NCBI GenBank assembly: GCA_013140975.1
Contig: JABFRV010000088.1
Span: forward strand, 1-36,310
Direction: 5' to 3'
Source of the DNA: Saprospiraceae bacterium
GTDB lineage: Bacteria; Bacteroidota; Bacteroidia; Chitinophagales; Saprospiraceae
DNA length: 36,310 bases
Made by a program: the position numbers and the translations under genes. The notes beneath the pieces were generated by a model, which was given only the letters and a program-made list of their open reading frames with translations, did not search any database and had not been told where the DNA came from. Below, one piece after another: positions 16,160-21,062 of this stretch (position 1 is its first letter; each line of letters begins with the position of its first letter).

Positions 16160-17566
16160 ATGGATTCAGCTGATCCTTATTCGGAACAATTACTCACAAT
16201 ACTTTTAACAACCGCATCAGGCGGACTAGGAGGATTTAACAGTTTTATTTTACTTGCTATTCTTATTTTTGGAGTGGGGTTGATTTCTGCTTTTGAAATT
16301 GCAATCTTTTCATTAACACCATCTGATATTGAAGAATTAAGAGATGATAATGAGAATGAATCTGCCAAGATTCTACTTTATATGAGAACTCACACAAAAA
16401 GACTTCTCGCCTTTTTACTAATTATTATTACGGTATTAAACATAGGTATTGCATTGGTTTTTGAACATCTATTGGACATCATATTTCCAATAGAAGTATA
16501 TTATGGTTTTTCGCAAAAAATTATAAACACTTTTAATATTTCAACAGTGACAATTGAAAGTGTATCCGATTTTTTAAACTTTTTAATTGCAGTTGTTGGA
16601 TCAACCTTTATAATTCTTTTATTTGGCGAAGTGACGCCTAAAATATATGGACAACTTAATAACCGCAAGCTCTCTATGTCACTCGCAGTTCCATTAAGAT
16701 TTCTTGATTTAATTTTATCTCCTTTGACTTTTGTACTTGTTAGTATGAGTAGTCGGGTAGAAAAAAAGTTATTGGAAAGAAGAATTGTCGGTTCGCTTTC
16801 TTCCAAGCAAGATCTTGATAAAGCAATTGATCTTGCAGTTAGCGACGAACTTGGATCTGAGAAGCAGATTGATATGTTAAAAGGAATCATTAAATTCAAT
16901 GATGTTTATATCAAGCAAATAATGCGTCCCCGTACAGAAATTTTTGCATTAGATTTTGATAATTCTTTTGATTCAATAGTAAATCAGGTTAAGAATAATG
17001 GTTATTCACGTATGCCTGTATTTAGGGAAGATTTGGATCATATGACTGGCATATTGTATGCCAAAGACTTAGTACCTAATCTTCATCAGAATAAGGATTT
17101 TGAGTGGCAGTCCTTGATGCGTAGTAATTTGTTTTATGTCCCTGAGAACAGAAAGATTCATGACCTGCTTCATGACTTTCAGGTAAAGAAAGTACACATG
17201 GCTATTGTAGTAGATGAATATGGAGGCACAAGTGGCTTAGTTACTTTAGAAGACATAATGGAACAAATTGTAGGAGAAATTCAAGATGAGTTTGATGATC
17301 TACATGATTTAAACTATACTATCCTAGACAAGCATAATTACATATTTGAGGGTAAAACTTTAATTAATGATATGTGTAGAGTACTTGGCCTGGACATTTA
17401 TTCATTTGATGCAATTCGAGGATCGGCAGATTCTATTGCTGGTCTGATTTTAGAAAAAACAAATGAAATGCCTAAACATGATCAGGAGATTCACATTCAA
17501 AATCTCAAATTTAAAATTATACAGGTTAACAAGAAAAGAATCGAGAAAGTAAAAGTTACAATTTAG
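16160..17566 (+). CDS. gldE: Gliding motility-associated protein GldE (CNNM/CBS/CorC)
   Basis: A 468-aa inner-membrane protein. The N-terminal DUF21/CNNM transmembrane domain has hydrophobic spans at about 23-50, 75-97 and 134-157, plus a further one near 172-192. A CBS-domain pair follows at about 250-375 (IMRPRTEIFALD; MAIVVDEYGGTSGLVTLEDIMEQIVGEIQDE) and a CorC/HlyC C-terminal domain occupies about 390-468. This is the hemolysin C/CorC-like architecture. In gliding Bacteroidota the copy next to gldD is called GldE and is tied to gliding and T9SS function, although its mechanism is not established. It is 3 nt from gldD, so the two are almost certainly co-translated. Confidence 0.9.
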   Translation: MDSADPYSEQLLTILLTTASGGLGGFNSFILLAILIFGVGLISAFEIAIFSLTPSDIEELRDDNENESAKILLYMRTHTKRLLAFLLIIITVLNIGIALVFEHLLDIIFPIEVYYGFSQKIINTFNISTVTIESVSDFLNFLIAVVGSTFIILLFGEVTPKIYGQLNNRKLSMSLAVPLRFLDLILSPLTFVLVSMSSRVEKKLLERRIVGSLSSKQDLDKAIDLAVSDELGSEKQIDMLKGIIKFNDVYIKQIMRPRTEIFALDFDNSFDSIVNQVKNNGYSRMPVFREDLDHMTGILYAKDLVPNLHQNKDFEWQSLMRSNLFYVPENRKIHDLLHDFQVKKVHMAIVVDEYGGTSGLVTLEDIMEQIVGEIQDEFDDLHDLNYTILDKHNYIFEGKTLINDMCRVLGLDIYSFDAIRGSADSIAGLILEKTNEMPKHDQEIHIQNLKFKIIQVNKKRIEKVKVTI

Positions 17567-17569
17567 CGT

Positions 17570-18166
17570 ATGAATTTATTTGGATTTCTTTATTCTATAA
17601 TTATTATTGTAATCATATTGAGTTCCTGCAAAGAACAAGTGTACAATCCTAAACCAAGAACGTATCCAAAGGTAATGTTACCGGAAAAGAATTATTATTT
17701 ATATAAACCAAAAGAATGTCCATTTGAGTTTAAGATTCCGACGTACTCAATGTATGAAAAAGATTCAACTTTCTTTGATACTCTGGCAGGGCCATGTTGG
17801 TTTAATATATATTATAAGGATTTTAATGCTAAATTGTATTGTACATATACACAAATAGAGAATAAAAATGAGTTAACAAAGTCTATTCAAGAAACATATA
17901 AACTTGTTAAAGGACATCTCATTAGAGCGGATTATATTGATGAATATCCGGTAAAACTGCCAAATAAACTAACCGGAATTATTTATGAGATTGAAGGACC
18001 ATCTGCTACACCTTTTCAATTTTATTTAACGGATTCAAGCAATCATTTTATTAGAGGTTCATTGTACTTTAACACTAGAATTAATCCGGACAGCCTTGCT
18101 CCATACTATGAGTTTACAAAGTTGGATGTGGTGGAAATGATATATTCATTTGAGTTTAAAAAATAG
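17570..18166 (+). CDS. gldD: Gliding motility lipoprotein GldD
   Basis: A 198-aa lipoprotein. The N-terminal hydrophobic stretch ends in LSSC (Cys20), a lipobox. The mature part begins with the proline-rich YNPKPRTYPKVMLPEKNYY segment and contains CPFEFKIPTYSM and CWFNIYY, all characteristic of GldD. In Flavobacterium johnsoniae GldD is needed for gliding and T9SS-dependent secretion. It follows gldE by 3 nt and is the last gene of the cluster. The protein has the normal length. It supports the presence of a T9SS, consistent with the sorting domain on the M43 protease at 23.7 kb. Confidence 0.92.
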   Translation: MNLFGFLYSIIIIVIILSSCKEQVYNPKPRTYPKVMLPEKNYYLYKPKECPFEFKIPTYSMYEKDSTFFDTLAGPCWFNIYYKDFNAKLYCTYTQIENKNELTKSIQETYKLVKGHLIRADYIDEYPVKLPNKLTGIIYEIEGPSATPFQFYLTDSSNHFIRGSLYFNTRINPDSLAPYYEFTKLDVVEMIYSFEFKK

Positions 18167-18212
18167 TTTCTAACCGTATTTATTAAGCGACTCCTATAAA
18201 GGGGCTTAAGCT

Positions 18213-18239
18213 AAAAAAACAGCGGGACCTAGATCCCGC
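18213..18239 (-). terminator. Rho-independent terminator for minus-strand transcripts
   Basis: GCGGGA (18222-18227) pairs with TCCCGC (18234-18239) around a six-base loop. Reading on the minus strand it is followed by seven U residues; on the plus strand there is no U tract. It ends either the recA transcript or the candidate RNA. Confidence 0.8.
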
Positions 18240-18376
18240 CATCAGATATATAAATAGGATAAGAAAAGTGGTTTTGCAAAATCAGTGAGAAACTGTTCTT
18301 ACTCCACCAATATTTTTAAGAAATTCAATTCAGCTTATTCGAATGGAATATACAAAGCTATTTTTCTAAAACATGT
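18213..18376 (-). ncRNA. Candidate structured small RNA (or recA 3' UTR)
   Basis: About 160 nt between recA and gldD with no open frame. A perfect TACTTTTG box on the minus strand at 18384-18377 precedes it, and a GCGGGA/TCCCGC hairpin with a U7 tract ends it (18239-18213). In between, on the minus strand, AGCTT pairs with AAGCT around an inner ATTC/GAAT helix; further on, GTGG and CCAC flank an AGTAAGAA/TTCTCACT helix with one A-C mismatch and a CAGT loop. This promoter-structure-terminator arrangement suggests an independent RNA, such as a 6S-like or regulatory RNA. The alternative is simply a long recA 3' untranslated region with its terminator. No -33 element is seen. Confidence 0.35.
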
Positions 18377-18384
18377 CAAAAGTA
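18377..18384 (-). promoter_or_regulatory. Putative -7 box upstream of the candidate RNA
   Basis: TACTTTTG on the minus strand, identical to the octamers upstream of recA and the GH3 gene. It lies 47 nt after the recA stop codon, where a protein-gene promoter would have no downstream gene to serve. Confidence 0.35.
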
Positions 18385-18430
18385 ATAATTCTTATTTGAA
18401 CTTTTAAAATATTTTGACAATTTATTTTAC

Positions 18431-19471
18431 TTATTCTTCGGCAGGTTCTTCAATTTTAACAAGCTTTCCGGAAGCTAATTTTTGCCTTATTTTATCTTCA
18501 ATCTCTTTGGAAACTTCAGGATTATCCAGCAAAAACTGTTTTGCTGCATCTCTTCCTTGAGCAATCTTGGTTCCTTCGTAAGAATACCATGAGCCACTCT
18601 TACCAAGGACATTTAGGTCAGATCCTAGGTCTATAATTTCTCCCGATTTGCTGATTCCCTGGCCATATTCGATATCGAATTCAGCGACCTTGAAAGGTGG
18701 AGCGAGTTTATTTTTTACCACCTTTACTTTAACTCGGTTTCCGGTTACATTTCCGTCTTTGTCTTTTATTGCGGTTCCACTTTTTCTGATATCTAAACGC
18801 ATTGAAGCATAGAATTTAAGGGCATTTCCTCCGGTTGTTGTCTCCGGATTTCCAAACATGACCCCGATTTTTTCCCGCAACTGATTTATGAATATGCAGC
18901 AGCAGCCTGTTTTACTTATAGTCCCAGTAAGCTTGCGGAGAGCCTGTGACATCAATCGAGCCTGTAATCCCATTTTTGATTCACCCATTTCACCTTCAAT
19001 TTCTGCTCTTGGTACTAAAGCAGCAACGGAGTCTATGACTATTATTTCAATTGCTCCTGATCGAATTAGATTTTCAGCAATTTCAAGAGCTTGTTCTCCA
19101 TTATCAGGTTGACTAATTAGAAGATCCTCAGTATTTACGCCTAAGCCTTCGGCATAAGTACGATCAAATGCATGTTCAGCATCAATAAATGCAGCTATTC
19201 CTCCGGCTTTTTGACATTCAGCAATAGCATGAATTGCTAAAGTTGTCTTACCTGAGCTTTCCGGACCATAAATTTCTATAACTCTACCTTTAGGGAATCC
19301 TCCAATACCTAAAGCTATATCGAGACCAATGGATCCTGTAGAAAATACATCAACTTCGTGGAGCACGGCTTTATCGCCAAGCTTCATTATAGATCCTTTT
19401 CCATACGTTTTCTCAAGTCTATCAATTGTGAGTTGTAAGGCTTTTAATTTTTCATCTCTTTCTTTAGACAT
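18431..19471 (-). CDS. recA: Recombinase RecA
   Basis: A DNA-strand-exchange ATPase and coprotease of the SOS response; 346 aa, normal length. Walker A is GPESSGKTT at 69-77, and the Walker B region is [16 protein letters not shown]. Loop L1 follows ([23 protein letters not shown]) and loop L2 begins at [22 protein letters not shown]. The C-terminal domain ends in an acidic tail (KIEEPAEE). The gene is single, with a TACTTTTG box 22 nt upstream of the ATG. No LexA-type box was recognised. It diverges from hutH and converges on gldD across the 264-nt spacer that holds the candidate RNA. Confidence 0.98.
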
Positions 19472-19492
19472 AATGTTTTTTTATATATAGGG

Positions 19493-19500
19493 CAAAAGTA
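19493..19500 (-). promoter_or_regulatory. Putative recA -7 box
   Basis: TACTTTTG on the minus strand lies about 21 nt upstream of the recA start. A TTTTG lies 22 nt further upstream, slightly more than the usual 17-19 nt spacing, and could be the -33 element. Confidence 0.5.
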
Positions 19501-19568
19501 ATATGTTATAGATACTTTGGCGCAAAATATTAGCATTTGCTTAAACTTTTAGCAAGTATTTTTACGCC

Positions 19569-21062
19569 ATGAAATCTCCTGTCATTTTAGAAAATAAAGA
19601 TTGGGCTTTTGAAGAAATTATTGAAATATGGCAAAGCGACAAAACGATTGAATTAAGTAAAGATATCGTTCAGATAATAAAAGAGAGTCGAGTTGCACTA
19701 GAAAACAAACTATCGGAATCCAAATCTCCCATTTATGGAATTAATACAGGTTTTGGCTCTTTGTGTAATACTGTTATAGAACCCAATGAACTAGATCAAT
19801 TGCAAATCAATCTTGTCAAATCTCATGCTTGCGGAACTGGCAAAACAATTTCTAACCAATTATCCAAATTAATCCTACTTCTAAAAATTATAGGATTAAG
19901 TAAAGCAAACTCTTGTATTAGAATAGATGTGATTCAATTTCTAGTTACGTTGTATAACAAGAAATGGCTTCCTTGCATTCCTGAATTTGGTTCATTAGGT
20001 GCATCAGGGGACCTTGCACCGCTTGCACATTTAACATTACTATGTATTGGAGAGGGCAAATTCGTTACAGAGGAAAATAATGTAATTTCAAATGTAAAAG
20101 AAGTTTTTGATAAAAACAATATTCAGATCCCAATGCTTAAGGCTAAAGAGGGATTGGCATTGTTAAATGGAACTCAGTATTCTTTAGCCAGATTAATTGA
20201 AAATTGTTTTCTGGCAAAAAAAATACTGAAGCAAAGTGAAATAACATCAGCCTTGTCCATAGAGGCGTTTAATTGCAATCCGGACTTTTTAAATGAAGAG
20301 ATTCATTCAATAAGAAAACAAATTGGTCAAATTGAAATCGCGAAATCATTAAGAAAAATATTACAAAAGAGTGAATTGTTTGCAAGAGAAAAAAACTCGG
20401 TACAAGATCCATATAGCTTTAGATGCATTCCACAGGTATTAGGAGCGAGTTATGATACCATCGAATATGTCAAGCAAATTGCTGAAAGAGAAATTAATTC
20501 TGTAACTGATAATCCCGTGATGATTTCTAACAATGAAATATTATCAGGAGGTAATTTCCATGCACAACCTTTAGCATTGTGCTCTGATTTTTTATCTATT
20601 GCAGTTGCAGAAATTGGCAATATAAGTGAAAGAAGAATTTATCAGTTAATCAATGGAAGTCGTGGATTACCAGAATTTTTAACAAAGAACCCGGGAATTA
20701 ACTCAGGTTATATGATAGTTCAATATTCAGCAGCAGCTCTTGTAAGCATGAATAAGCAAAGTTGTACACCTTCTTCTGTAGATAGTATAGTTACTAGCAA
20801 AGGACAGGAAGATCATGTAAGCATGGCAGCAAATGCAGGAATAAAATGTTTTGATGTAGTTGAACGAACACAGACTGTTATTGGAATGGAGTGGATGACA
20901 GCTTGTCGTGCTTGGGAATTTAGAAAAGATAATTGGAAGTTGAATGAAGAACTAAGCACATATTTTGAAAAGTACAGACTCATGATTCTATTTCAGGAGG
21001 ATGATCATATTCCTTCAAATGATTATAAAGGCACCATTGAATTTTTAAACAGTATCTCATAA
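19569..21062 (+). CDS. hutH: Histidine ammonia-lyase (aromatic amino acid lyase)
   Basis: Deaminates L-histidine to urocanate without a soluble cofactor. The 497-aa protein carries the self-forming MIO triad Ala145-Ser146-Gly147 in GSLGASGDLAPLAH, the catalytic Tyr56 in YGINTGFG, and KSHACG (84-89), whose Ser-His pair fits histidine specificity rather than the HL of tyrosine lyases. The QDPYSFRCIPQVLGA and SVTDNPV-like (INSVTDNPVM) blocks follow, and QEDHVSMAANAG lies near 417-428. No hutU, hutI or hutG is nearby, so if it feeds histidine catabolism the rest of the pathway is elsewhere. It is followed 8 nt later by an outer-membrane acyl hydrolase-like gene and diverges from recA. Confidence 0.92.
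   Translation: MKSPVILENKDWAFEEIIEIWQSDKTIELSKDIVQIIKESRVALENKLSESKSPIYGINTGFGSLCNTVIEPNELDQLQINLVKSHACGTGKTISNQLSKLILLLKIIGLSKANSCIRIDVIQFLVTLYNKKWLPCIPEFGSLGASGDLAPLAHLTLLCIGEGKFVTEENNVISNVKEVFDKNNIQIPMLKAKEGLALLNGTQYSLARLIENCFLAKKILKQSEITSALSIEAFNCNPDFLNEEIHSIRKQIGQIEIAKSLRKILQKSELFAREKNSVQDPYSFRCIPQVLGASYDTIEYVKQIAEREINSVTDNPVMISNNEILSGGNFHAQPLALCSDFLSIAVAEIGNISERRIYQLINGSRGLPEFLTKNPGINSGYMIVQYSAAALVSMNKQSCTPSSVDSIVTSKGQEDHVSMAANAGIKCFDVVERTQTVIGMEWMTACRAWEFRKDNWKLNEELSTYFEKYRLMILFQEDDHIPSNDYKGTIEFLNSIS

Follow-up and report, generated by a model that had tools for sequence, protein, structure and literature searches.

Does the short interval between recA and the convergent gldD gene in a genome of an uncultured Saprospiraceae genus carry a small RNA gene of its own, or only the end of the recA transcript? 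An earlier note on this DNA, a contig stretch of 36,310 nucleotides referred to here as the window, had proposed an independent small RNA at this position, possibly a 6S-like one. Comparison among relatives supports the independent small RNA, as the element recurs on the 3' side of recA in all eight loci of the genus that could be compared and its core has resisted change even though synonymous sites are saturated, and does not support the 6S-like assignment. The best explanation, which we consider probable from the sequence comparisons, is that the element represents a previously undescribed independent sRNA gene whose product would most likely act in trans by base-pairing through a seed close to its terminator.

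Layout of the recA-gldD interval

The features of the locus are collected in Table 1. The promoter octamer had been described as perfect and the same as that of recA, and this proved correct: TACTTTTG is found at 18384-18377, 49 nt beyond the point where the recA stop codon begins, and, for recA, at 19500-19493, both on the minus strand. Such a promoter was also said to have no protein gene to drive and to be followed by a stretch without an open frame. Both statements hold, with gldD convergent and ending at 18166, no open frame common to the genomes, and a longest closed frame in the predicted RNA of the window that starts with TTG and spans 16 codons. The predicted +1 of the candidate RNA is at about 18372, and the 5' domain contains a predicted hairpin (about 18308-18267) adjoining the conserved block. 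A second octamer, TAGCTTTG, is located at 18360-18353 (minus strand), 24 nt downstream of the first and within the predicted RNA, and could as an alternative start give an RNA of about 136 nt. A gene for an aromatic amino acid lyase (PF00221), at 19569-21062 on the plus strand, is divergent from recA.

Table 1. Positions of the candidate sRNA element, its predicted parts and its neighbours in the window
Feature	Position	Strand	Remarks
-7 promoter box TACTTTTG (sigma-A type of Bacteroidota)	18377..18384	-	octamer present at 8/8 genus loci
Variable 5' domain of predicted RNA	18266..18372	-	no alignment across the genus
Conserved block TTCTTATCCTATTTATATATCT (type A), mostly unpaired in folds	18244..18265	-	
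Intrinsic terminator hairpin	18218..18243	-	10 counted pairs over 7 distinct rows
T7 run, predicted RNA 3' end	18213..18219	-	shares the last two stem bases counted by the terminator scan
recA	18431..19471	-	PF00154, PF21096; upstream neighbour in all 8 element-bearing genomes
gldD	17570..18166	+	PF25593 (window copy); convergent neighbour, outside the element

Conservation within the genus

BLAST searches with the unit against 100 relatives gave strong matches in the same genus only, namely in the window, G002, G001 and G008. A RecA search of 60 relatives recovered recA in 56, and among the best 30 loci, which were compared, the same arrangement followed recA in eight, all from the same genus, and was absent from the 22 loci of other genera; in a ninth genome of the genus (G005) neither recA nor the element was found. 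Downstream of recA, all eight loci showed a TAnnTTTG octamer followed by a conserved core of 54-64 nt, consisting of a mostly unpaired block of about 22 nt and the terminator hairpin. The core occurs as type A (the window's genome, G000, together with G001, G002 and G008) and type B (G003, G004, G006 and G007), with block and hairpin in the same order and spacing in both, and the block, about 22-25 nt long, hardly varies inside either of two clades of the genus.

The alignments indicate that this core is kept where the synonymous sites of recA are saturated. For example, G004 and G007 are identical at 63 of 64 core positions against 39 of 128 four-fold sites of recA, and G000 and G002 at 53 of 55 against 52 of 132, while G008 matched the other type A genomes at 48-50 of 59 core positions against 34-36 of 123-126 four-fold sites. 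In almost every pair, the upstream spacer and the 60 nt downstream matched at close to the rate of shuffled sequence; the main exception, G004 and G006 (four-fold sites 114/165, spacer 80/101), is a close pair and not an independent witness. When regions of 8-10 kb were compared by BLAST, the block alone matched outside recA between G000 and G008 and between G002 and G008 (35 nt, 97% and 100%, respectively). It is the comparison among genomes, and not the single sequence, that provides the evidence beyond chance.

Analysis of the genes beyond the terminator revealed convergent gldD in G000, G001 and G002 only (identified in G001 and G002 from sequence similarity), a starch-synthase-like gene in G008, a methyltransferase gene in G003, and a heavy-metal P-type ATPase gene in G004, G006 and G007, identified by Pfam in G004 and by a similar reading in the other two. 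Because the downstream gene differs among genomes, the element is not the leader of a fixed gene, and an attenuator of the next gene was ruled out, since that gene varies and is convergent in three genomes. The constant adjacency to recA may reflect descent alone, as the gap is short. In type B genomes G004, G006 and G007 (loci L028, L029 and L026), the ATPase gene is codirectional with the element and about 120-165 nt past the terminator, an arrangement that is not genus-wide.

The terminator hairpin and the strand of the predicted RNA

A GC hairpin followed by seven U residues had been noted at the end of the stretch, and both were confirmed (hairpin 18243-18218, then T7). This is the sole terminator-like site in 17500-19600, where 0.9 would be expected from shuffled sequences. 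Over the 10 counted pairs and 7 distinct rows of the alignment, all 70 stem cells are paired, G-C/A-U exchanges included; two stem pairs changed on both sides, with a covariation score that was reached by 11 of 500 shuffles. Eight of the 70 cells are G-U, leaving only 62 of 70 paired in a plus-strand RNA, and these eight cells, which would lose their pairing there, mark the minus strand as that of the RNA. The same G-U cells, together with the T run, disfavour an element that functions only as DNA. A predicted intrinsic terminator would close the 3' end of the candidate sRNA.

The earlier note had also described several compensatory-looking helices in the interval and suggested aligning the recA 3' spacers of relatives to find covarying pairs. 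Among the eight genomes, this alignment bore out the expectation for the terminator stem, which covaries, but not for the 5' helices: paired changes are confined to the terminator stem, and the 5' domain aligns only in the closest pairs.

Predicted promoter octamers downstream of recA

Because TAnnTTTG is common in the window (46 occurrences, 23 per strand, with TACTTTTG itself occurring six times), the octamer is meaningless when taken alone. In this genus it is nonetheless a plausible promoter, because a TAnnTTTG precedes the start codon of all eight recA genes of the genus by 28-31 nt. At least one TAnnTTTG is present between the recA stop and the core in each of the eight genus loci; the chance of a spacer octamer in shuffled sequence ranged from 0.059 to 0.278 per genome, and the product is 8.4e-8 if the genomes are independent and about 1e-6 with G006 dropped. 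By comparison, only four of 22 recA 3' regions from other genera (L031, L037, L047 and L049) had an octamer within 350 nt, a control to which L051 contributes only 302 nt, and the difference between eight of eight and four of 22 gave a Fisher value of 8.5e-5. A promoter box that is uninformative on its own gains meaning through this comparison, which suggests that the element has its own promoter.

A TTG at -33, with a spacing of 17-23 nt, was seen by eye in only four of the eight genus loci. In the excerpts of Ryan et al. (PMC7366714) used here, the -33 motif is described as not recovered in Flavobacterium johnsoniae, and excerpts on Flavobacterium psychrophilum place the octamer at -12 to -5 (PMC9723704). 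More than one octamer competes in G000, G002, G003 and G008. For folding, the octamers at 49, 45, 133 and 181 nt, respectively, were picked, and the RNA lengths given for these four genomes are therefore choices between two octamers.

Folding of the predicted RNAs

The whole candidate RNA of the window was only marginally more stable in its fold than shuffled sequences, with a z of -1.44 over 180 nt and -1.76 over 160 nt, and the 5' helices of the window alone were within chance (z -0.85). The 5' domains of the eight genomes had a mean z of about -1.6 (Stouffer z -4.5, with related genomes treated as independent), and together these modelled domains are suggestive, but only suggestive, of a lean towards structure. 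The mean unpaired probability of the block was 0.71-0.86 in the folds of all eight predicted RNAs, for which the predicted +1 was set one base further than in the 5'-domain folds. A hairpin ends at most 5 nt from the block in seven of the eight folds, the exception being G006.

Distribution of the element

A search of 84,980 species genomes with a degenerate pattern of the core, in a collection that may omit the record of the window itself, returned seven records, all from this genus (G001-G004 and G006-G008) and all MAGs labelled Saprospiraceae or Bacteroidota; the pattern had no match in viral contigs. The covariance model R1 matched 45 of 398 genomes at E<=1 in a family sample with strict filters. 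Each of the eight genus genomes had one strong match (64.7-76 bits), and the other 37 genomes scored at most 45.5 bits; the 14 of these that were inspected were ordinary terminators behind genes, or lacked the block. A second copy of the element was not found in the eight genomes. Rfam gave no gathering match in the window and no fitting family for the element, and searches of an open-access library for papers on Saprospiraceae, Haliscomenobacter or recA in connection with small or noncoding RNA returned none on it. As the element comes with a promoter, ends, an alignment of eight species and a separate version in each clade of the block that is likely to be active, it is directly testable by metatranscriptome mapping.

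Proposed function and search for targets

We propose that a sigma-A promoter (TAnnTTTG) about 40-180 nt past the recA stop would start an RNA of 104-185 nt, about 160 nt in the window, that would end at the intrinsic terminator. From 5' to 3', this RNA would comprise a variable, weakly folded 5' domain, the mostly unpaired block of about 22-25 nt, and the terminator hairpin. Through a short seed, the unpaired block would pair imperfectly with one or more mRNAs and alter their translation or stability, much as for GibS but with the seed beside the terminator. The comparisons show the conservation of the element, its promoter box, its terminator, its strand and the absence of a common open frame; we infer transcription of the element, the role of the block as a seed and a trans-acting mode of action from this anatomy and its conservation.

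When three mismatches at most were allowed, a search for sequences complementary to the block found only its own locus in the type A genomes, of which there are four, and scattered three-mismatch matches only in G003 and G007. A search with 12-mer complements of the block gave no orthologous gene-start target; two 12-mer matches, in G003 and G007, share one stretch of codons inside an orthologous gene, some 450 nt from the gene start, and were attributed to conservation of the protein. An extended antisense target is excluded at the search threshold used, with short seeds (7-10 nt) lying outside the scope of these searches.

Alternative explanations

The element could instead be no more than the 3' UTR of the recA mRNA with its terminator, serving mRNA stability or yielding a cut-out 3'-UTR-derived fragment, with the octamer incidental. 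The element immediately follows recA in the same orientation at all eight loci, and its hairpin was the one terminator-like site that the scan picked up past recA, as this explanation would have it, yet we hold the explanation to be unlikely, given that an octamer is kept at eight of eight loci amid spacer that cannot be aligned (four of 22 in other genera), that in G008 the core and the octamer are 319 and 181 nt past recA, respectively, and that a plain terminator needs no invariant unpaired block. Because the scan of 17500-19600 found no second terminator ahead of the element, transcripts of recA may continue through it and carry it as a 3' UTR as well. A further proposal combines both sources in a genus-specific regulator tied to recA. 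Since read-through and the promoter would yield the same RNA, induction of recA by DNA damage would raise the level of the sRNA. If this were true, a terminator-proximal block, with one version fixed per clade, would retune mRNAs or a protein in the damage response, a prospect we consider a long shot. Binding of an RNA-binding protein by the block, or capture of another RNA by a sponge, would fit both the near invariance of the block within clades and the failure of the long and 12-mer complement searches to reveal a target. We nevertheless regard it as fairly improbable, with no candidate partner at hand and seeds of 7-10 nt beyond the reach of those searches.

6S RNA is a long hairpin with a closing stem and a central bubble, and a diverged member that sequesters RNA polymerase would agree with the size range and the own promoter of the element. 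The 6S slot also looks empty, as RF00013 had no match in nine genomes of the genus and RF01685 none over the cut-off in 20 relatives, nine of them from the genus. The RF01685 result is weak evidence on 6S RNA in the genus, because the control matched only weakly and in one unrelated genome, and this lineage either lacks a 6S RNA or has one too divergent for the models to recognise. At the site itself, however, neither 6S family matched even at E<=10, the folds lack a long stem closing 5' to 3' ends and a central bubble, and the conserved part is unpaired with a 5' domain free to diverge, which makes a 6S RNA very unlikely here. Rfam at E<=10 gave eight matches for 18100-18500, with no 6S family among them; the best, L20_leader, reached 20.9 bits where the cut-off is 58.7 and was dismissed as a generic terminator with a T run. 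A short coding gene or leader peptide ending in the conserved block is scarcely credible and was rejected. Although the block reads as similar short C-termini in both clades in one frame, and a TTG or ATG start precedes it in several genomes, none of the frames offers a start codon throughout the eight genomes, and in the block frame of G000, G001 and G003 the interval from the preceding stop to the block contains no ATG, GTG or TTG.

Comparison with known systems

An independent sRNA gene at this locus would share its size range and its stand-alone gene with 6S-Flavo (RF01685) and 6S (RF00013), but differs from both in having no covariance match and no hairpin with a central bubble. The GibS sRNA of Bacteroides thetaiotaomicron, according to excerpts of Ryan et al. 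(PMC7366714), is intergenic and about 145 nt long, with a TSS and an intrinsic terminator, and combines a conserved, unpaired seed with metastable hairpins, a linear stretch and the terminator. As far as those excerpts describe it, GibS resembles the element in its genus-limited conservation, weak fold, unpaired conserved stretch and terminator; the likeness is one of description, and the seed of GibS is at the 5' end, whereas the block described here is beside the terminator. In F. psychrophilum, excerpts of a second study (PMC9723704) describe independent noncoding transcripts with a median of 176 bp, many of them conserved among congeners and with TAnnTTTG promoters. The element is like Rfp18 and the other independent transcripts of this species in being noncoding, conserved among congeners and preceded by TAnnTTTG, but Rfp18 is described there as having a strong fold in which a stem-loop carries the pairing region, while the conserved part of the element is predicted to be unpaired. 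GibS and Rfp18, as presented in these excerpts (PMC7366714, PMC9723704), are examples of RNAs of this kind that function in the phylum. The element looks like an sRNA of ordinary design that is unusually well conserved.
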